Source of the DNA: an uncultured Hyphomicrobiales bacterium
Lineage (GTDB): Bacteria; Pseudomonadota; Alphaproteobacteria; Rhizobiales; Beijerinckiaceae
Assembly (NCBI GenBank): GCA_903824185.1
Contig: CAIJVU010000036.1
Location: forward strand, 1-64,000
Direction of reading: 5' to 3'
DNA: 64,000 nt
Shown here: piece after piece, positions 3,279-38,386 of the stretch
Layout: every line of letters begins with the position of its first letter
How positions within the stretch are numbered: the stretch's first letter is position 1
The notes under the pieces: model-generated
The model's input: the letters and a program-made list of their open reading frames with translations, nothing else
Told to the model about the DNA's origin: nothing
Databases searched by the model: none
Position numbers and translations under genes: made by a program

Positions 3279-4205
3279 GTGAAAACACCTCCATTTCCCA
3301 TGCTGACCGGACGCATAACCGCCATCATTGTGACCCATGACAGCGCAGGGGTTTTGGAAAAATGTCTGACGGCGCTTCGCCAGCAAAATGCAACCCTGAT
3401 TGTGGTGGATAATGCCTCCAATGATCATAGCGTTGCGATTGCTGAGAAGGCAGGCGCCCTGGTGCTGCGCAACGAGCACAATCAGGGATTTGGCCGCGCC
3501 ATGAATCTCGGCCTCTCAAAAGCCAGTACGGATCTTGTTTTGTTTATCAATCCTGATCTTGTGATTGCCGATGGCGCTTTGTCAGCCCTAGAGGCGGCTG
3601 AAATCCGTTATCCCGATGCAGCTTTATTTGGCCCGCATTTAATCGAACCGGGTGGACGGATTTTCTTTCCTAAAAAATCCTTGTTATCGCCCTATCTGCA
3701 TAATGAGATCGGCAAAGACTGGAAGCCGAATGGTGATTGTTGTGTGCCGCATATTTCGGGTGCCTGCATGCTGATGCGGCGCAATCAGGCTTTGGAACTA
3801 GGCGGCTTCGACCCCGAGATATTTTTATTTTATGAAGATGATGATCTCTGCCGTCGGGTGATCGAGGCGGGTTTTTCAATCATCTATGTGGACCATGCCT
3901 TGGCGCATCATGATCGCGGCCATTCAACCGCTCCCCGACCGGGACGCGCCTATAAAAGCCGTTGGCATTTGAGCTGGTCGCATCACTATATTGCGCAAAA
4001 ATGGAATATTCCTGCCCCGACTTCAGGCCTCAAACTCAAAAATACGCTCAAATATTGGTTGGCCCGCCTGACCCATAATCAAGCGCGCATCGAGCGTTAT
4101 GCGGGCACTTTGGACGGAATCAAGGCCTTTGAAGCCGGACTAACAGCGCTTGAGCAAGAAGGCCTGTCCAAAACCATCCCTTTGGCGCTCAATGACCGGA
4201 CGTGA
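3279..4205 (+). CDS. Family 2 glycosyltransferase (rhamnosyltransferase-like)
   Basis: Predicted cytoplasmic-face transferase that adds a sugar to a polysaccharide or LPS intermediate. The GT-A fold motifs are visible: IIVTHDS near the start, IVVDNASNDHS around residue 40, NQGFGRAMN, a FINPD motif for nucleotide-sugar/metal binding, and FFYEDDDLCRR-type (FLFYEDDDL) catalytic-region sequence near residue 190. The start is GTG at 3279; an ATG seven codons later (3300) would give MLTGRITAIIV and is a good alternative. The sugar and acceptor are unknown. ManC and Ugd upstream suggest a polysaccharide role. Confidence 0.88.
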   Translation: MKTPPFPMLTGRITAIIVTHDSAGVLEKCLTALRQQNATLIVVDNASNDHSVAIAEKAGALVLRNEHNQGFGRAMNLGLSKASTDLVLFINPDLVIADGALSALEAAEIRYPDAALFGPHLIEPGGRIFFPKKSLLSPYLHNEIGKDWKPNGDCCVPHISGACMLMRRNQALELGGFDPEIFLFYEDDDLCRRVIEAGFSIIYVDHALAHHDRGHSTAPRPGRAYKSRWHLSWSHHYIAQKWNIPAPTSGLKLKNTLKYWLARLTHNQARIERYAGTLDGIKAFEAGLTALEQEGLSKTIPLALNDRT

Positions 4206-10012: not shown

Positions 10013-10777
10013 TTAATCAAAAATAGAATCACCATGCGTTTCGACATAGGCGGCTAGGGCCAGCGTATGCTCGCGCGACAAGCGCTCGGCCAGATCCGCA
10101 TCATGGCGCTCCAAGGCTTCGATTATCGCCAGATGGTCGCGGATCGAGCGGGAGGCCCGATCATCACGCCCGATCGTCAATTGGCGGATACCGCGCACAT
10201 GCAACAAGAGATTATCCGTCAGATCGACCAGAATTTGCGAACCACTCAAACGGATCAGGGTTTGATGAAAGGTGATATTGGCAGCGGAATATTCACTGAG
10301 ATTTTCTTGCGGCGTGCGGGTTTCGGTAAAGCTCACGAAAATACCGCGCAAGGTCGCAATTTCGCTTTCCGTAATGCGCGCGGCCAAGAGCCGTGCCGCC
10401 ATGCTTTCAAGCGCCGCCCACGCCTCGATCATGCCGATCACTTCGCGTTTGGTTTTTTTCAAAACCATAATGCCTTTGCGTGGCACAGAGCGAACAAAGC
10501 CCTCTTGTTCGAGCATGGCAATGGCTTCGCGCACCGGCGTCCGGCTCACACCGAGCTTCTCAGACAGCTGCCGCTCATCGAGCCATGACTGGGTCGCGGT
10601 CCCATAAATATCCATGCCGATCACGGCTTGTTTTAAAATGCCATAGACCTTGGTTTTAAAGGAGACTTCGGGCGCAATGCGTTTAATCACCAGATCTTGC
10701 GAAGGCCCGTCTGTCACGGGCCAGCGCATTTTGGGCTTCAACACATTCGCGGCCTTAGAATGAGCGGCCTTGGCCAT
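10013..10777 (-). CDS. GntR-family transcriptional regulator, FadR/FCD subfamily
   Basis: A 254-residue one-component regulator. A winged helix-turn-helix at about residues 45-110 contains LDERQLSEKLGVSRTPVREAI and LEQEGFVRSVPRKG; the C-terminal FCD effector domain follows, with metal-type His residues (ITFHQTLIRLSG, RDHLAIIEAL). A copy of the 17-bp oxalate-locus operator lies about 100 bases upstream of the start, and four more lie in front of oxc, the small ORF, oxlT and the acyl-CoA synthetase. FCD regulators usually bind TGG...CCA palindromes, so this gene is the best candidate for the regulator and is probably autoregulated. The effector may be oxalate or a CoA ester (inference). Confidence 0.93.
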   Translation of the reverse strand: MAKAAHSKAANVLKPKMRWPVTDGPSQDLVIKRIAPEVSFKTKVYGILKQAVIGMDIYGTATQSWLDERQLSEKLGVSRTPVREAIAMLEQEGFVRSVPRKGIMVLKKTKREVIGMIEAWAALESMAARLLAARITESEIATLRGIFVSFTETRTPQENLSEYSAANITFHQTLIRLSGSQILVDLTDNLLLHVRGIRQLTIGRDDRASRSIRDHLAIIEALERHDADLAERLSREHTLALAAYVETHGDSIFD

Positions 10778-10874: not shown

Positions 10875-10891
10875 TGGTATCCCAAAAGCCA
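10875..10891 (-). promoter_or_regulatory. Candidate GntR operator upstream of gntR (site E)
   Basis: Read on the minus strand the site is TGGCTTTTGGGATACCA, with 17 bases and all the invariant TGG, TGG, AT and CCA positions of the family (consensus TGGCATYTGGNATRCCA). It lies about 100 bases before the gntR start, which suggests autoregulation. Confidence 0.65.
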
Positions 10892-12554: not shown

Positions 12555-13808
12555 TCAGCCTGTCGCGCCGGATGCCTTGATCGCCTCGATTTGCGTGGCA
12601 GGCAGTTTCAAGACATCCCGCAAAATCTCATCCGTATGTTCGCCCAGCAAAGGCGAACGCACGACATTGGCGGGGCTATCGGACAATTTGATGGGATTGC
12701 CGACAGAGAGATATTTACCGCGTTCGGGATGATCGACCTCAACCAGTGTGCCGGTTGCCCGCAAGGACTTGTCCTCGGCAATCTCTTTCATGGAGAGGAT
12801 CGGACCGCAAGGAATGTCATATTGATTGAGAATATCCATGGCCTCGAACTTGGTTTTGGTCATGGTCCATTGTTCGATGCGGGTGAAAATCTCGTTCAAG
12901 CGTGACAGGCGGGCAGCGGGCTTTGCGTAATCGGCATGGGTCTTCCAGTCAGGCTCGCCGATGACATCACAAATTTTTTCCCAGACAGGCGCTTGGGTAA
13001 TGAAATAAATATAGGCATTGGGATCTGTCTCCCAGCCCTTGCATTTCAAGATGCGGCCCGGCTGGCCGCCACCGGAATCATTGCCGGCGCGCGGGGTGGC
13101 ATCGCCAAAAGCAATCCCTTCCCCATATTGGCTATATTCTTTCAACGGGCCGTGATCGAGGCGTTGCTGATCGCGCAATTTGACGCGGCAGAGATTCAAC
13201 ACGCCGTCTTGCATGGCGCAGGTCACCATCTGCCCCTTGCCGGAATGGGTGCGCTGATAAAGGGCTGTGACAATCCCCAGAGCCAGATGCAGACCTGTAC
13301 CGGAATCACCGATTTGAGCGCCTGTCACCAAGGGCAAGCCGTCGCGGAAACCGGTGGTGGAAGCCGCGCCGCCTGTGCATTGCGCCACGTTTTCATAGAC
13401 CTTGCAGTCTTCATAGGGACCGGGGCCAAAGCCCTTGATGGAGGCCACAATCATCCGCGGATTCATCGCGTGAATGACCTCCCAAGGAAAGCCCATCCGG
13501 TCAAGCACACCGGGTGCGAAATTTTCGACCAGCACATCACAGGTTTTGATCAGATGCTCGAGAACCTCTTTGCCTTTCTGGTTTTTGGTATCGAGCGTAA
13601 TCGAGCGCTTGTTGTGATTGAGCATGGTGAAATAAAGACTGTCGACATTCGGGATGTCTTGCAATTGCCCACGCGTGATATCGCCCGTGCCGGGACGCTC
13701 GACCTTGATCACATCCGCCCCGAACCATGCCAATAATTGTGTGCAGGTCGGACCCGATTGCACATGCGTGAAGTCCAGAATTTTAACGCCTTCGAGTGCT
13801 TTGCTCAT
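12555..13808 (-). CDS. frc: Formyl-CoA:oxalate CoA-transferase
   Basis: Class III CoA-transferase that moves CoA from formyl-CoA to oxalate, giving oxalyl-CoA and formate. The 417 residues match Frc length. The catalytic Asp lies in [14 protein letters not shown] (around residue 169) and the mobile glycine loop appears as [17 protein letters not shown] (around 255-270). The N-terminus [20 protein letters not shown] is close to known Frc proteins. It follows oxc with a 12-base gap, so the two form an operon. Confidence 0.96.
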
Positions 13809-13820
13809 CGGAGTTTTCCC

Positions 13821-15545
13821 TTATTTCTTTTTGACAACACTTTGCGGATTCAAATTACCGATGCGGCCACTTTCCGTGCCCGATGACGGATCGATGACCG
13901 CATTGATCAGAGTGGGTTGACCGCTCTCAATCGCAGCCTTCACCGCCGTCAATAATTCAGAGGGGCTGGTCGCTGTCACGCCGACACCACCAAAAGCCTG
14001 CATCATCAAATCATAGCGCGAGTCTTTGACAAAGACGGTTGTCGCGGGATCCGTGCCATTGGTGTTGACATCCGTGCCGCGATAAATCCCGTTATTGTTG
14101 AAAACAACAATGCATATAGGAAGATTGTAGCGGCAGATGGTTTCAACCTCCATGCCGGAGAAACCAAAGGCACTATCCCCTTCCACCGCCAAAACGGGTT
14201 TACCCGTTTCAATGGCAGCTGCAATGGAAAAGCCCATACCGATCCCCATCACGCCCCATGTGCCGACATCAAGGCGTTTGCGTGGCTGATACATATCAAT
14301 CACACCACGGGCCAGATCGAGCGTATTGGCGCCCTCATTCACAAGGATCATATCGGGATGGTCTTTGATGACGCTGCGCAGAACGCCCAAGGCGCCATGG
14401 AAATCCATAGGTGATTTGTTGTTCATCAGACGCGGTGCCATCTTGGCGATGTTCTCATCGCGTTTGGCCGCGACCATGTCCATCCAAGCGGCTGGCGGTT
14501 TTGGCCAATTGGTCCCCATGCCCTGCAAAAATGCTGTCACGCAAGAGCCGATATCGCCGACCACAGGGGCGACGATTTCGACATTGGAGTCCATTTCTTT
14601 GGGCTCGATATCGATCTGGATAAATTTCTTCGGCGCGTCACCCCATGTCTTGCCCTTGCCATGCGACAGGAGCCAATTCAGACGCGCCCCGATCAGCATC
14701 ACCACATCGGATTCTTTCAAGACCGTTGAACGCGCAGCACCCGCTGATTGCGGATGCGTATCGGGCAGCAAACCCTTGGCCATGCTCATCTGCAGGAAAG
14801 GCACACCGCTGGTTTCGATGAATTCACGAATGGAGGCATCCACTTGCGCATAAGCAGCCCCTTTGCCCAAAATGACAAGCGGGCGTTGGGCTGATTTCAA
14901 TACATCGAGCGCACGCTTGATCGAGGCTGCAGCTGGGATTTGCGCAGGTGCGGCATCAATCACCTTCACCAGTGATTTGGCCCCTTGCTCCGCATCCATA
15001 ACCTGCGAGAAAAGCTTGGCCGGCAAATCAAGATAGACACCCCCCGGACGACCGGACACCGCAGCCCGGATGGCACGGGCAATGCCGATCCCGATATCAG
15101 CCGCGTGCAGAATGCGGAAGGCGGCTTTGCACAAAGGCTTGGCAATCGCCAGCTGATCCATCTCCTCATAGTCGCCTTGCTGCAAGTCAACAATTTCGCG
15201 CTCCGACGAGCCGGAAATCAAGATCATGGGAAAGCAATTGGTGGTTGCATTGGCGAGCGCCGTCAAACCATTCAAAAATCCGGGGGCCGAGACGGTGAGA
15301 CAAATGCCGGGTTGCTTGGTGAGATAACCCGCAATCGCCGCCGCATTGCCTGCATGTTGCTCATGCCGGAAAGAGATCACCCGAATCCCGGCGGCCTGCG
15401 CCATACGCCCCAGATCGGTGATGGGAATACCCGGCACATTGTAAATGGTTTTCACGCCATTGAGCTTCAAGGCATCGATGACAAGGTGAAATCCGTCTGT
15501 CAGTTCACGGTCTTCGCCGGAATGGGCAACCGAAGCATCACTCAT
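13821..15545 (-). CDS. oxc: Oxalyl-CoA decarboxylase
   Basis: ThDP-dependent enzyme converting oxalyl-CoA to formyl-CoA and CO2. Length 574 is usual. The catalytic Glu is in [17 protein letters not shown] (around residue 60), and the ThDP signature runs from [16 protein letters not shown] to [13 protein letters not shown] (around residues 470-505). The start has GGAGGAA upstream. Transcription probably begins in the 15.5-15.8 kb gap, where operator site A lies about 210 bases before the start. It forms an operon with frc. Confidence 0.97.
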
Positions 15546-15755: not shown

Positions 15756-15772
15756 TGGCATACCAAATGCCA
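15756..15772 (-). promoter_or_regulatory. Candidate GntR operator upstream of oxc (site A)
   Basis: Minus-strand sequence TGGCATTTGGTATGCCA, one base different from site B and one from site D. It sits within the 19-base inverted repeat CTGGCAT-N5-ATGCCAG (15755-15773), about 210 bases upstream of oxc. Confidence 0.75.
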
Positions 15773-15931
15773 GATGTCAATGAAGGAGCATTCATGGGGA
15801 TATAACATTAAACAATTGATAAAATTGGTTTTTTCATAAATTAAATCCGTCAAATACCCCTTTGCATCCCCCTCTTTTTTCATTGCAATGCAAAAATTGA
15901 ATAGCTGCACCGCAATATTTTTGTTGGTATG

Positions 15932-15948
15932 TGGCATCTGGTATGCCA
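15932..15948 (+). promoter_or_regulatory. Candidate GntR operator upstream of the 44-residue ORF (site B)
   Basis: TGGCATCTGGTATGCCA on the plus strand, nearly identical to site A in the opposite orientation 160 bases away. It lies about 105 bases before the small ORF at 16055. Sites A and B together bracket an AT-rich stretch that probably holds divergent promoters. Confidence 0.72.
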
Positions 15949-16054
15949 AGATATGTTCCAGCATTTCTTTTCAACCCCTTTGCCCCCTCTGAGGCGCTTG
16001 TCGAACAAAGCCCTGTGTTCAAGGACTTGCCCTTTGACTGATGGAGTGACCGCC

Positions 16055-16189
16055 ATGTCTTCGACTATTCATATGCCTGCCCAACGTCTCTCTTTGCTCA
16101 GCCTGTGCTCTGCCTTTATCGAAGCCGCAGGACTGATCTTGATCGCCGCTTATTCGCGCCAAGATGACATCGAGCCTTTTGGTCTTTGA
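16055..16189 (+). CDS. Small hydrophobic protein in oxalate locus (44 residues)
   Basis: I do not recognise this protein. The 44-residue reading frame starts at ATG 16055 with GGAG at 16043-16046, exactly eight bases upstream. It contains a hydrophobic or amphipathic helix, RLSLLSLCSAFIEAAGLILIAAYS, here only named by its ends (about residues 11-34), then a charged tail ending DDIEPFGL. A strong terminator follows at 16251-16278 and operator B lies upstream, so it appears to be a complete single-gene unit regulated with the oxalate genes. It could be a small membrane protein or a leader peptide. In-frame extension to 15929 has no support. Confidence 0.55.
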   Translation: MSSTIHMPAQRLSLLSLCSAFIEAAGLILIAAYSRQDDIEPFGL

Positions 16190-16250
16190 TCGCGGATTTC
16201 CGCGCGAGGCCGCATTAAAAATTCTTTTTTTCTCTCAATGTTTCAGAAAA

Positions 16251-16278
16251 GGTCGGGCTTAATGCCCGACCTTTTTTT
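16251..16278 (+). terminator. Rho-independent terminator after the 44-residue ORF
   Basis: Eight-base stem GGTCGGGC/GCCCGACC with a five-base loop followed by seven Ts. There is no other plus-strand gene upstream of it, so it supports transcription of the small ORF. Confidence 0.92.
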
Positions 16279-16365
16279 GATCAAAACGCCGTTTTGATCA
16301 CACTCAAACCGTCCGGCCCAAGGATGCCCTCCTATCGCAGCGCAATGAAAAAGACACTTGCAAAC

Positions 16366-16382
16366 TGGTGTATGGGATACCA
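16366..16382 (+). promoter_or_regulatory. Candidate GntR operator upstream of oxlT (site C)
   Basis: TGGTGTATGGGATACCA, 17 bases, sharing the invariant positions and the TGGGATACCA half with site E. It lies about 170 bases before oxlT. Confidence 0.6.
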
Positions 16383-16550: not shown

Positions 16551-17978
16551 ATGCTTCATCACGAAGAAGGCGAAGGCGTCCGTGTGAGCGATACCTATCG
16601 TTGGTTCCAGCTGGCCATCGGCGTTGTCTGCATGGTCATGATTGCCAATTATCAATATGGCTGGACATTTTTTGTGCCCGATATCCAAAAGCAATTTGGC
16701 TGGAAGCCATCCGATATTCAGGTGGCCTTCACTCTCTTTGTTTTGTTCGAGACATGGCTTGTCCCGATTGAAGGCTGGTTTGTGGATCGGTTTGGGCCGC
16801 GCCTTGTGATCCTGATCGGTGGTGTTTTATGCGGTATCGGCTGGTGGATGACCTCACGCGCCACCACACTCGGCGGCTTTGATGGGTATTACGCGGCCAT
16901 GATTATTTGCGGTATCGGGGCGGGCGGTGTCTATGGCACCTGTGTTGGCAATGCCTTGAAATGGTTTCCCGACAAACGCGGACTGGCTGCGGGCATCACA
17001 GCCGCAGGCTTCGGGGCCGGATCGGCTCTGACTGTTGTTCCCATCCAAAACATGATCAAGGATCAAGGCTTCCAACAAACCTTTTTCAATTTTGGCGTCG
17101 GGCAAGGGCTCATCATCTGTGTTCTCGCCTTCTTTCTCATGGCCCCCAAATCGGGGCAAGTTCCCAAAACAAATGTCAATTTGCGTGTGGTCCAAAGCCG
17201 TCGCCAATATAAGCCCAGTGAAATCATCGGCCCTGTTCAATGGTGGATCGCAGCCTCCATCGGGATCGGTTGCATAGGCCTTCTGATGTCCATGCAAGGG
17301 CAATTATTTTACTTCCAGCTGGTCTTGGCCGCGCTTATTTTTATAGTCGGCGGAACCATTATTTATAAGCGTGGCGAACCGGTTTTTCTTCTGATGTATT
17401 TCATGTTCGTCATTGTCGGTGCTGGCGGTTTGATGGTCACAGCCAATCTCAAACCCATCGCCGCCAATTTGAAGATTGCGGATCAGCCTGTGACGATCGT
17501 CTGGACCATGACAGCCATTACATGGGCCGCCACCATTGACCGCATCCTGAATGGATTGACGCGCCCCTTCTTTGGTTGGGTCTCGGATAAAATCGGACGC
17601 GAGCAAACCATGTTCATTGCCTTTGCTTTGGAAGGCATCGGCATTTATCTGCTTTATCTCTATGGCTCTGATCCCTTACTGTTTGTCTTACTGTCAGGAT
17701 TTGTGTTTTTTGCTTGGGGCGAAATTTATTCGCTGTTTCCCTCCACATGCACCGACACATTCGGCTCGCAATATGCCGCAACCAATGCCGGACTGCTCTA
17801 TACGGCCAAAGGCACAGCCGCTTTGCTGGTTCCTTTCGGCAGTCTGATCCAAGAAGCAACAGGAAGCTGGGACACGGTTTTTCTGATTGCGGCAGGCGCC
17901 AATATTCTGGCATCCGTTCTGGCACTTGTGGTGCTCAAGCCTTGGCGCGCACGGGTGATTGCCGCAAACGGATTATGA
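16551..17978 (+). CDS. oxlT: Oxalate/formate antiporter (OFA-family MFS)
   Basis: Predicted inner-membrane exchanger of oxalate for formate. The 475-residue protein has twelve hydrophobic segments. Its OFA-like features include NYQYGWTFFVPDIQ in helix 1, WFVDRFGPR between helices 2 and 3, GIGAGGVYGTCVGNALKWFPDKRGLAAG, NGLTRPFFGWVSDKIGRE in the second half, and LLYTAKGTAALLVP where the conserved transport lysine of OxlT would be expected. GGGGGGAAA upstream provides a strong ribosome site. Operators and a separate inverted repeat lie in the preceding gap. Because Oxc makes formate from oxalate, exchange here would also drive proton consumption (family knowledge). Confidence 0.9.
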   Translation: MLHHEEGEGVRVSDTYRWFQLAIGVVCMVMIANYQYGWTFFVPDIQKQFGWKPSDIQVAFTLFVLFETWLVPIEGWFVDRFGPRLVILIGGVLCGIGWWMTSRATTLGGFDGYYAAMIICGIGAGGVYGTCVGNALKWFPDKRGLAAGITAAGFGAGSALTVVPIQNMIKDQGFQQTFFNFGVGQGLIICVLAFFLMAPKSGQVPKTNVNLRVVQSRRQYKPSEIIGPVQWWIAASIGIGCIGLLMSMQGQLFYFQLVLAALIFIVGGTIIYKRGEPVFLLMYFMFVIVGAGGLMVTANLKPIAANLKIADQPVTIVWTMTAITWAATIDRILNGLTRPFFGWVSDKIGREQTMFIAFALEGIGIYLLYLYGSDPLLFVLLSGFVFFAWGEIYSLFPSTCTDTFGSQYAATNAGLLYTAKGTAALLVPFGSLIQEATGSWDTVFLIAAGANILASVLALVVLKPWRARVIAANGL

Positions 17979-18756: not shown

Positions 18757-19002
18757 GATCTTTGGTTCCTGATGATCATCGCAACAAACTATCGTCCCAT
18801 GGATGGTTCCATTGACAGACAAGAAAAAGCGGTAGCCAGATTGGGCACGGATTGCAAGAACACGCTTTCAAACCATCGCGCCGCCAGCCCGCCAAAAACC
18901 TCTCTTGCCAGATGAAAAAGCAAACAAAATCAAAGGATCCGCTGCAATGCAAAAAAGTTTTTCCGGCACAGGCTTTAAATGCAACTTGACAGTGACCTTT
19001 GT

Positions 19003-19019
19003 TGGCATGCCAAATGCCA
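19003..19019 (-). promoter_or_regulatory. Candidate GntR operator upstream of the acyl-CoA synthetase (site D)
   Basis: Minus-strand sequence TGGCATTTGGCATGCCA, one base from site A. On the plus strand it contains the perfect 12-base palindrome TTGGCATGCCAA. It lies about 108 bases before the synthetase start and 247 bases before terC. A TTGACA at 18986 is the nearest -35-like element. Confidence 0.75.
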
Positions 19020-19126
19020 GTATTAATGTGTAAGCAGTCTTTTGTACCGACATAATGCGTGGGACTGTTTTTCCTCCCCATTATGTTGTCCCAATAAAAC
19101 ATGAAACACGTGGAGGAGAACCGGCC

Positions 19127-21262
19127 ATGGCCCATGACACAGCAACTGTTCGTAAAGTTATTGACGGCGTAAAAGCGTCTGGCCGCACGGCCCTGACGGC
19201 ACCGGAAGCAAAGCTGGTGTGCGATGCGTTTCATATTCCTCTTCCCAAAGAAGATATGGCCACCTCGGCAGAGGCTGCAGCTAAAAACGCGGCCTCTATC
19301 GGCTTTCCGGTTGTGATGAAAATTGTATCGGCGGACATCCTGCATAAAACCGATGCGGGCGGTGTGATCGTTGGCGTGAAGTCAGCGGATGAAGCAAAGA
19401 CGGCCTATGACACCATCATCGCCAATGCCAAACGCTATAAAGCCGATGCCAAAATTGACGGCGTGCAAATCCAGCAAATGCTGCCTTCGGGCGCGGTTGA
19501 AACCTTGATCGGCTCCATCACAGACCCCTCCTTTGGCAAATTGGTTGCCTTTGGCTTGGGGGGTGTGTTTGTCGAGGTTCTCAAAGATTTGACCTTCCGT
19601 CTGGCGCCCGTCAATGAAACCGAGGCGATGGAAATGCTCGGATCCATCAAAGCACAGGAGATGCTGGATGGCGTGCGCGGCGCTGCGGCTGTTGACCGGC
19701 ATGCGCTTGCTAAAATACTCGTCAATGTCTCTGCCTTGCTCAAAGCCTTTCCTGAAATTTCCGAGCTTGATCTCAACCCTGTTTTTGCAACTTCCAAAGG
19801 CGCCACGGCCGTCGATGCCCGCATCGTTTGTGATTTTGAACATCATCAAGAACGCTATCGGCCTGATCAGGCCGAAATCATCCGCGCGACCAACCGTATT
19901 TTCAAACCAAAAGCGGTGGCCGTCATTGGTGCCTCCAATGAAGCGGGAAAGATTGGCAATTCGGTTATGAAAAACCTGATCAATGGCGGCTATAAAGGCA
20001 CCATTGTTCCTGTTCACCCCAAAGCCAGTGAAATCGAAGGCATCAAAGCCTATCCCTCCATCAACGACTATCCCGGCATTGTCGATGTCGCCGTCTTTGC
20101 CGTGCCTGCGCATCTCTGCGTCGCGGCCATGGAAGATGTGGGCAAAAAACAGGTGCCGGGTGCCGTGATGATACCCTCAGGCTTTGCCGAAACCGACAAC
20201 CAACCCTTGCAAGACGAATTATTGGCGATGGCGCGCAAATATAATGTGCGCATCATGGGCCCGAATATTTACGGCTTTTATTACACGCCGGAAAATCTCT
20301 GCGCGACCTTCTGCACCGCTTTTGATGTCAAAGGCCATGCGGCCTTGTCTTCACAATCGGGCGGGGTCGGCATGTCGATCATCGGCTTTGCCCGTTCAAC
20401 CAAGATGGGCGTTTCGGCCATTGTAGGGCTTGGCAATAAATCAGATCTAGATGAAGATGATTTGCTCACCTTCTTTGAACAAGACGACAATACCCATGTG
20501 ATCGCGATGCATTGCGAGGATCTCAAAGACGGTCGCTCCTTTGCAGAGGTCGCCAAGCGCGTCTCCCAGAAAAAACCGGTCATCATGCTCAAAGCAGGCC
20601 GGACGGCCTATGGTGCCAAAGCAGCGGCCTCCCATACTGGCGCGCTGGCTGGCAATGACAAAATCTACGACGACATCTTGAAAGCATCGGGTGTGATCCG
20701 CGCCCCCAGCCTGCGCTCCATGCTTGAATATGCGCGCGGCGTGCAGGTGCTCCCGACACCGAAAGGCGAAAATGTCGTCATCATCACGGGTGCGGGCGGA
20801 TCGGGCGTTTTATTGTCCGATGCCTGCTTTGATAACGGGCTGACGCTGATGAAAATGCCGGATGATCTCGATGCCGCCTTCCGCAAATTCATTCCGCCGT
20901 TTGGTGCGGCTGGCAATCCGGTTGATATTACGGGTGGTGAGCCTCCCAAAACCTATCAAAACACCATCCGGCTCGGTCTCGAAGATGACCGGATCCATTC
21001 CCTGATTCTTGGCTATTGGCATACGATTGTCACACCGCCCATGGTCTTTGCGCATCTGGTCGCGGAGGTGGTGGAAGAATTCAGAGCGAAGGGCATCAAC
21101 AAACCGGTCGTGGCCTCGCTTGTCGGCGATGTGCAGGTGGAGGAGGCCTGTGCCTATCTCTATGACCATGGTGTGGTGGCCTATCCCTATACAACCGAAA
21201 CACCGGTCGAGGTTCTCGGTGCCAAATATAAATGGGCCCGGGCTGCAGGCCTTTTAAAATAA
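19127..21262 (+). CDS. Acyl-CoA synthetase, NDP-forming (acetate-CoA ligase ADP-forming family)
   Basis: A 711-residue single-chain enzyme of the ADP-forming acyl-CoA synthetase superfamily. An ATP-grasp domain comes first (HKTDAGGVIVGVKS, then GLGGVFVEVLKDLTFRLAP, ELDLNPVF), then the CoA-binding Rossmann domain (AVIGASNEAGKIGN, around residue 265) and the ligase domain with the phosphohistidine loop AASHTGALAGND (around residue 505). ATG 19127 has GGAGGAG upstream. The substrate cannot be read. An oxalate-locus operator and the nearby frc/oxc suggest oxalate or formate activation to prime the CoA cycle (inference). A generic acetate- or pimeloyl-type ligase is the alternative. Confidence 0.88.
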   Translation: MAHDTATVRKVIDGVKASGRTALTAPEAKLVCDAFHIPLPKEDMATSAEAAAKNAASIGFPVVMKIVSADILHKTDAGGVIVGVKSADEAKTAYDTIIANAKRYKADAKIDGVQIQQMLPSGAVETLIGSITDPSFGKLVAFGLGGVFVEVLKDLTFRLAPVNETEAMEMLGSIKAQEMLDGVRGAAAVDRHALAKILVNVSALLKAFPEISELDLNPVFATSKGATAVDARIVCDFEHHQERYRPDQAEIIRATNRIFKPKAVAVIGASNEAGKIGNSVMKNLINGGYKGTIVPVHPKASEIEGIKAYPSINDYPGIVDVAVFAVPAHLCVAAMEDVGKKQVPGAVMIPSGFAETDNQPLQDELLAMARKYNVRIMGPNIYGFYYTPENLCATFCTAFDVKGHAALSSQSGGVGMSIIGFARSTKMGVSAIVGLGNKSDLDEDDLLTFFEQDDNTHVIAMHCEDLKDGRSFAEVAKRVSQKKPVIMLKAGRTAYGAKAAASHTGALAGNDKIYDDILKASGVIRAPSLRSMLEYARGVQVLPTPKGENVVIITGAGGSGVLLSDACFDNGLTLMKMPDDLDAAFRKFIPPFGAAGNPVDITGGEPPKTYQNTIRLGLEDDRIHSLILGYWHTIVTPPMVFAHLVAEVVEEFRAKGINKPVVASLVGDVQVEEACAYLYDHGVVAYPYTTETPVEVLGAKYKWARAAGLLK

Positions 21263-37456: not shown

Positions 37457-38386
37457 TTAAAGACCGTCCCGACGGCGGCGCATCAAAGCCTCCAGCTCGG
37501 GATCGGGCTGCTGCGGGACCGTCACATCAAGGGACACCAAAAGATCCCCCCGCGCTTCGGCGCCAGCGGCTAAGCCCTTGCCACGCAAGCGTAAAATACG
37601 ACCGGTCGAGGAACGCGGCGGAATATCCATTTCCACCTCGCCCTGCAAAGTGGGCACACGCATGCGCCCGCCCAAAATGGCTGTTTCCAGAGGAATGGAT
37701 AAATGATGGCGCAAATTGCTGCCCTCGATCACAAAACGCTGATCCGGTGCAATCTTCACGGTCACATAGGCATCGCCCGCCGGACCACCATCACTCCTTT
37801 TTTGTCCCTGCTCCTTGAGCCGGATGGTTTTACCGTCCGTCACCCCCACCGGAATTTTGACATCAAGCACCCGTCCATCGGGAAAGGTCATGCGTTTGAC
37901 AGCGCCGGAAACGGTATCGGCCAATGAAATGGTCGCCTCGACCCGAATATCGGCGCCCGCTGCATTGGCCCTGCGGCCGCGCGGATCCTTGTTTTTAAAC
38001 CGAAACAAATCCGCGAACAAATCAGAGGGGTCAATGCCCGAAGCCCCGCCACCCGAAAAAGGGCCGCCCGCGCCAAAGCCAAAATGAAACCCTTGCGAGG
38101 ATCCGCCTGCCGACGAGCGCGGCTGCGATGGATCAAACCCCTGAAACCGTTGTTTGCCCTCGGCATCAATTTCGCCGCGGTCAAATTGCTGACGCTTGCT
38201 GCTATCCCCGAGAATTTCATAGGCCGTGTTGAGTTCGGCGAATTTCTCTTTCGCCTTCGGATCGGATTGATTGTGATCGGGGTGCCACGTCTTCGCCAGA
38301 CGACGAAACGCCTTTTTAACGTCGGCCTCATTGGCCGAACGCCCCACACCCAGAACCTCGTAAGGATCCCTTGCCACGTCTGTCAT
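37457..38386 (-). CDS. DnaJ-class molecular chaperone (CbpA-like, no zinc finger)
   Basis: Co-chaperone of DnaK. A J domain at about residues 5-70 has PYEVLGVGRSANEADVKKAFR and the HPD motif in WHPDHN, then a Gly/Phe-rich linker (SSQGFHFGFGAGGPF) and two C-terminal substrate-binding domains (DGRVLDVKIPVGV, LRLRGKGL). The cysteine-rich zinc finger is absent, so it is a type B/CbpA-like member. ATG 38386 is chosen; the longer frame to 38650 adds 88 residues without family support. Confidence 0.92.
   Translation of the reverse strand: MTDVARDPYEVLGVGRSANEADVKKAFRRLAKTWHPDHNQSDPKAKEKFAELNTAYEILGDSSKRQQFDRGEIDAEGKQRFQGFDPSQPRSSAGGSSQGFHFGFGAGGPFSGGGASGIDPSDLFADLFRFKNKDPRGRRANAAGADIRVEATISLADTVSGAVKRMTFPDGRVLDVKIPVGVTDGKTIRLKEQGQKRSDGGPAGDAYVTVKIAPDQRFVIEGSNLRHHLSIPLETAILGGRMRVPTLQGEVEMDIPPRSSTGRILRLRGKGLAAGAEARGDLLVSLDVTVPQQPDPELEALMRRRRDGL

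Follow-up and report, generated by a model that had tools for sequence, protein, structure and literature searches.

Small Proteins of Comparable Size and Setting

Transporters and kinases can be modulated by small membrane proteins such as AcrZ, KdpF and MgrB, and MFS transporter small subunits are annotated beside transporters of the OFA family. The DUF1127 proteins of alphaproteobacteria are of similar size (~45-55 aa), are transcribed as units of their own and include the VtlR/LsrB targets BAB1_0914 of Brucella and Atu1667 of Agrobacterium; they are tied to a particular carbon source, in their case L-fucose (PMC12595884), and bind sensor kinases (PMC12501420). For VtlR of Brucella the motif CAATGCAGCCATGCA has been published (PMC12595884); the box proposed for VtlR reads GCAT-N3-TG-N3-T, and the targets of VtlR in Agrobacterium include AbcR1 and a ~300-nt RNA (PMC7486931).

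The gene described here, sm44, lies in a window of 64,000 nucleotides (the whole stretch of DNA that was analysed) belonging to the 2.8-Mb genome of a freshwater alphaproteobacterium, G000, whose oxlT has its nearest relatives in sequences labelled Hyphomicrobiales. It resembles AcrZ, KdpF and MgrB in having one short helix, an exposed tail and co-regulation with a pathway, with no sequence kinship claimed, and differs from them in that the character of its helix changes between genera. The OFA-linked subunits, which serve as a lead only, are alike in being small hydrophobic ORFs near an OFA-family MFS gene; sm44 differs in its lack of an NCBIfam match and its inconstant adjacency to oxlT. The likeness to the DUF1127 proteins extends to size, separate transcription, a putative LysR-type promoter element of similar form and the tie to a carbon source; unlike them, sm44 shows no sequence match (hhalign probability < 1%), is not arginine-rich and carries an extra GntR operator.

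sm44 and the Oxalate Locus

The 44-aa ORF is a real gene, and its features are collected in Table 1. The order of the locus is GntR/FCD regulator, pyruvate kinase-like gene, frc, oxc, 509 bases, sm44, its terminator, oxlT, TerC-like gene and acyl-CoA-synthetase-like gene, where the pyruvate kinase-like and TerC-like names were assigned by eye. The GntR/FCD protein is described as an unnamed oxalate regulator because all NCBIfam models score below their cut-offs; here the pyruvate kinase-like gene stands between it and frc, and in other genera it adjoins oxc. A sequence-only reading had credited the frame with a correctly spaced GGAG, a near-canonical operator upstream, a strong dedicated terminator and the standing of its own unit inside the locus, and all of these hold: the GGAG lies ~8-11 nt 5' of the ATG start codon and is found in 5/5 genus members, the operator lies 107 nt 5' of the start codon with zero mismatches to the oxc operator pattern, the hairpin is far more stable than its shuffles, and the place beside oxc is conserved. 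The hairpin was not listed by a simple terminator scan, probably because A/T pairs lengthen its stem into the T-tract.

Table 1. Positions of sm44, its control elements and the surrounding oxalate genes in the window.
Feature	Position	Strand	Evidence or remark
GntR/FCD regulator, which probably represses the regulon	10013..10777	-	PF07729, PF00392; weaker operator upstream at 10875-10891
frc, formyl-CoA transferase	12555..13808	-	TIGR03253 above cut-off
oxc, oxalyl-CoA decarboxylase, constant divergent neighbour of sm44	13821..15545	-	NF006721/TIGR03254 above cut-off
Twin operator in the oxc-frc promoter, TGGCATTTGGTATGCCA (CTGTCAATG on the + strand)	15756..15772	-	just after conserved TTGACA; conserved in five genomes
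Putative VtlR/LsrB-like LysR-type box, TGCAATGCAAAAATTGAATAGCTGC	15884..15908	+	spacing to operator; register as before DUF1127 genes
GntR/FCD-type operator of sm44, TGGCATCTGGTATGCCA	15932..15948	+	one of three zero-mismatch genome matches; fixed spacing in 6/7 loci, one mismatch in the seventh
Shine-Dalgarno region of sm44	16041..16048	+	sequence; GGAG in all five genus members (five-genome alignment)
sm44, small protein gene, 44 aa, MSSTIHMPAQRLSLLSLCSAFIEAAGLILIAAYSRQDDIEPFGL	16055..16189	+	homologues in 4/4 other genus members and two second-genus genomes; dN/dS 0.13-0.41
Intrinsic terminator of sm44	16247..16280	+	hairpin -24.4 kcal/mol, z = -6.6 vs shuffles; then U-tract
oxlT, oxalate/formate antiporter	16551..17978	+	TIGR04259, 593 bits; own weaker operator 16366-16382
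Third zero-mismatch operator, before the acyl-CoA-synthetase-like gene	19003..19019	-	preceded by TGCAATGCAAAAA at 18943
Acyl-CoA-synthetase-like (ADP-forming) gene	19055-21262	+	

Promoter Elements

When the operator pattern TGGYATNTGGYATGCCA is searched with zero mismatches, three sites only are returned from 2.8 Mb, in the promoters of oxc, sm44 and the acyl-CoA-synthetase-like gene; the copies before oxlT and the GntR gene are weaker. The sm44 operator comes after a TTGGTA hexamer (TTGGYA in relatives) in the same register as TTGACA in the oxc promoter, and a position just after such a hexamer would be typical of repression. Other genera have this operator type before oxc, oxlT, formate dehydrogenase genes or the GntR gene itself, which makes the GntR/FCD protein the likely binder. 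As judged from sequence, sm44 is a protein-coding, monocistronic gene in its own transcription unit; with a predicted operator shared with oxc and a place in the locus, it is also a member of the oxalate regulon. The same operator type stands before a gene recognized by eye as formate dehydrogenase-like in relatives (L031, L032 and L033, about 3671-3682, minus strand), which suggests that the GntR regulon extends to formate oxidation. At the acyl-CoA-synthetase-like gene, the TGCAATGCAAAAA sequence is followed 60 nt on by the zero-mismatch operator, and that gene is probably in the same regulon because the same pair of elements precedes it.

The second element upstream of sm44 takes the form TGCAATGCAAAAA-N5-TAGCTGC and lies 48-50 nt 5' of the operator in the six loci, from two genera, in which both motifs are matched; in the seventh (G001) the element is present and the operator has one mismatch. 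The next-best match to the element in the genome lies before a 53-aa DUF1127 gene. Such a gene, also of 53 aa, occurs at L183 (G000:C28, about 37486-37790), and 114 nt before it lies a near-canonical VtlR-type box, CGCATAGCTGCATTC. A matrix derived from DUF1127 promoters recovers the sm44 element in the same register at p <= 0.01 in 4/7 loci; in the remaining three its best match is weak, displaced or found on the opposite strand. Compared with the VtlR box, the GCAT half is degenerate in the sm44 element, and because part of that half is missing the VtlR/LsrB-like activator stays a putative assignment. Matches to the element in a class-wide search were mostly chance, with one near a DUF1127 gene.

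Conservation of the Coding Sequence

Homologues of sm44 were sought with tblastn and a profile and are present in the remaining four genomes of the genus at 50-56% identity (5/5 carriers), each placed divergently from oxc and each with an ATG, a GGAG and 43 codons. The homologue search and dN/dS test proposed in the sequence-only reading place relatives' copies beside oxc under purifying values, with pairwise dN/dS of 0.13-0.41 (nine pairs with finite dS). Within the last 13 codons, pN is 0-0.07 against a pS of 0.22-0.46 among G001-G004, and the variable columns across all five genomes number 2, 2 and 10 at the first, second and third codon positions. The BLOSUM sum of the real frame is 1316 against a null of 678 +/- 76, in which alignment columns with the same consensus base were exchanged; 0/5000 of these shuffled alignments reach the real value, so that conservation at the codon level is present in relatives. 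All five proteins begin with MSS and end in AY[ST]R.DDIEPFGL, the tail DDIEPFGL being invariant, and sequence comparison marks the C-terminal tail as the most constrained part.

This frame-specific conservation, seen in two genera, leaves a negligible likelihood for a chance ORF without function, a reading for which the lack of a database family would speak. The same data bear on a dual-function transcript, that is, a ~300-nt regulatory RNA that also encodes the peptide. The monocistronic unit with its terminator and the RNAs driven by VtlR in Agrobacterium (PMC7486931) would suit such a transcript, but the 5'UTR and the 3' region diverge between genus members where the codons do not, and Rfam gives no match; this reading is quite unlikely.

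Structure and Family Assignment

AlphaFold2, run on the single sequence with no alignment, predicts one helix at residues 8-39 with a mean pLDDT of 80. In the window's genus the best 19-residue Kyte-Doolittle mean is 1.6-2.2, hydrophobic enough for the membrane, and the net charge is -1 to -3; in a second genus, g11, described below, the mean is 1.2-1.3 and the helix is amphipathic (moment 0.51-0.57), charged and not transmembrane-like. The earlier description of a short hydrophobic helix with a charged tail therefore stands for the window's genus.

Pfam and NCBIfam scans of the family members gave no match, in keeping with the earlier view of an uncharacterised protein with a gene of a length usually missed by annotation; tblastn against plasmids gave no sm44 match either. 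Membership of DUF1127 (PF06568) was rejected: there is no Pfam match at E <= 10, hhalign against the relatives' DUF1127 alignment, with the profile core L.D..L.DIG..R.DI, gives 0.1-0.3% probability, and the negative net charge in the window's genus is not that of an arginine-rich protein. A small subunit of an OFA transporter was likewise set aside, as the 44 aa have no NCBIfam match and oxlT is non-adjacent in G001-G004, and so was a fragment of OXC, FRC, OxlT, GntR or the acyl-CoA-synthetase-like protein, local alignments to which are no better than those of shuffled peptides.

A Second Genus and a Probable Single Origin

When the divergent flank of oxc or GntR was inspected in the family's other genera, an SD-preceded ORF of 44-45 codons came to light in two genomes of g11, with the sequence MATNVLYGAR(R)QSSLLDRV.ASV.AFLN.V.EINRRNGAV.PFGL. 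The arrangement is that of the window, with GntR/oxc leftward and the small ORF rightward, followed by a terminator and oxlT, and the promoter module is alike. The genus-only profile did not report these copies at E <= 0.05, and a profile-profile comparison of the two groups gives a probability of 39% and an E of 3e-4, which is weak when taken alone. M1, R11, R35 and PFGL are fixed across both genera while the helices diverge, a pattern that hints at a functional role for the tail rather than the helix; the simplest reading is that a membrane-seeking helix of loose sequence would present a conserved C-terminal docking tail.

The g11 proteins also bear on the idea of a secreted peptide, in which the helix would be a signal peptide cut after SAA/SEA (relatives) or IAA (window), freeing ~12 residues, YSRxDDIEPFGL. 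Small residues do occupy -1 and mostly -3, and the 12-residue end is conserved in the five genus members, but the charged, amphipathic g11 helices have no signal-peptide character; the signal-peptide reading is unsupported by the second genus and has only a slim chance.

In the OXC tree the seven carriers group as a single clade (support 95/87), with one change on the tree, and a single origin is likely for that reason. Taken jointly, place, promoter, length, tail and tree indicate a likely common origin for the genus and g11 copies. Among 22 family genomes with oxc, the carriers are G000, G001, G002, G004, G014 and G054 only; as most oxc loci of the family are without sm44, the gene is dispensable for oxalate use in general. 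A profile search of ~300-400 family and 400 order genomes gave, outside the two genera, only weak matches, mostly within long frames and taken as chance, and a scan for the C-terminal motif in 80 oxlT loci (Bradyrhizobium and others) found no further family members.

Neighbouring Genes across Carriers

The invariant neighbour of sm44 is oxc or the GntR-oxc unit. The antiporter gene oxlT adjoins sm44 in 3/7 carriers only (the window and the two g11 loci); it is ~6 kb off, beyond frc, in G001 and non-adjacent in G002-G004. Downstream of sm44 in G001-G003 lies a convergent gene, and G004 has the same flanking sequence on a short contig. The convergent genes of G001-G003 (L113 9968-12500; L111 12428-14960; L114 3485-6029) are a pair encoding a large membrane protein, histidine kinase-like by eye and with no Pfam or NCBIfam match, and a LuxR-type response regulator; the pair is missing from the window and from beside the g11 copies.

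A leader peptide sensing oxalate was one of two roles offered in the sequence-only reading, and gene order contradicts a leader peptide or attenuator of oxlT. In the window the idea drew on the shortness of the ORF and on the terminator that separates it from oxlT, but in G001-G003, where the downstream gene is convergent, there is no co-directional gene to control; selection acts on the amino acids, and oxlT is served by an operator of its own. The oxalate-sensing leader is very unlikely because of the convergent gene in relatives (with the same flank in G004) and the terminator and separate oxlT operator in the window and g11.

The other proposed role, a small membrane protein acting with OxlT, would make sm44 a subunit or regulator specific to OxlT; it draws on the hydrophobic helix of the window's genus and on oxlT being the next gene in the window and both g11 loci. 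The gene order in G001-G004, where oxc stays the neighbour, weakens the case for OxlT alone, and the separate promoter and terminator and the lack of transmembrane character in g11 also speak against it; the role gains no specific support and is unlikely.

The main rival, somewhat unlikely, is that sm44 is a signalling adaptor which, like DUF1127 proteins or MgrB, would bind a sensor kinase or regulator and link oxalate catabolism to a wider response. The putative VtlR-like element common to the promoters of sm44 and of a small DUF1127 gene in the same genome, the known binding of DUF1127 proteins to sensor kinases (PMC12501420) and the kinase-like/LuxR pair of G001-G003 are consistent with it. 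However, sm44 is not a DUF1127 protein, and the kinase-pair link is inconstant since the pair is missing from the window and the second-genus loci.

Proposed Role and Implications

It is probable from the sequence comparisons that sm44 is a real accessory part of oxalate metabolism. The preferred role, held with about as much confidence as doubt, is that of a small accessory protein that belongs to the oxalate/formate regulon, is induced along with it and would tune the pathway through docking of its tail. The GntR/FCD regulator would repress oxc-frc and sm44 together until oxalate or a signal derived from oxalyl/formyl-CoA appears, and a LysR-type (VtlR/LsrB-like) activator may add a general carbon-status input. 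The product would form a single helix, of hydrophobic character in the window's genus and amphipathic in g11, that lies on the inner membrane or is inserted into it, and the fixed tail ...PFGL could dock onto a partner encoded by the same regulon. The likeliest candidate for that partner would be the OXC/FRC pathway, its transport step or the oxidation of formate, with docking tuning the activity, stability or membrane placement of the partner. A wider and more tentative possibility is that sm44 is the first member of a new family, the tail-docking 'PFGL proteins'. Such proteins would bind an enzyme or a transporter involved in CoA-dependent oxalate breakdown and control it, which would make them regulators of the pathway at the protein level; their own production would depend jointly on a GntR repressor specific to oxalate and a LysR activator that conveys carbon status globally.

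The degradation of oxalate by way of CoA is important in soil, freshwater and the gut. Its enzymes and its antiporter have been studied well, whereas no small accessory protein of the pathway was found in the open-access literature searched. Anchoring on a shared operator finds diverged small genes that profile searches miss, as with the g11 copies, which fell below the threshold of the genus-only profile. sm44 is a concrete gene to delete or tag, and if the proposal is true, the existence of such a co-regulated protein with its conserved docking tail would suggest that oxalate degradation is also controlled after translation.
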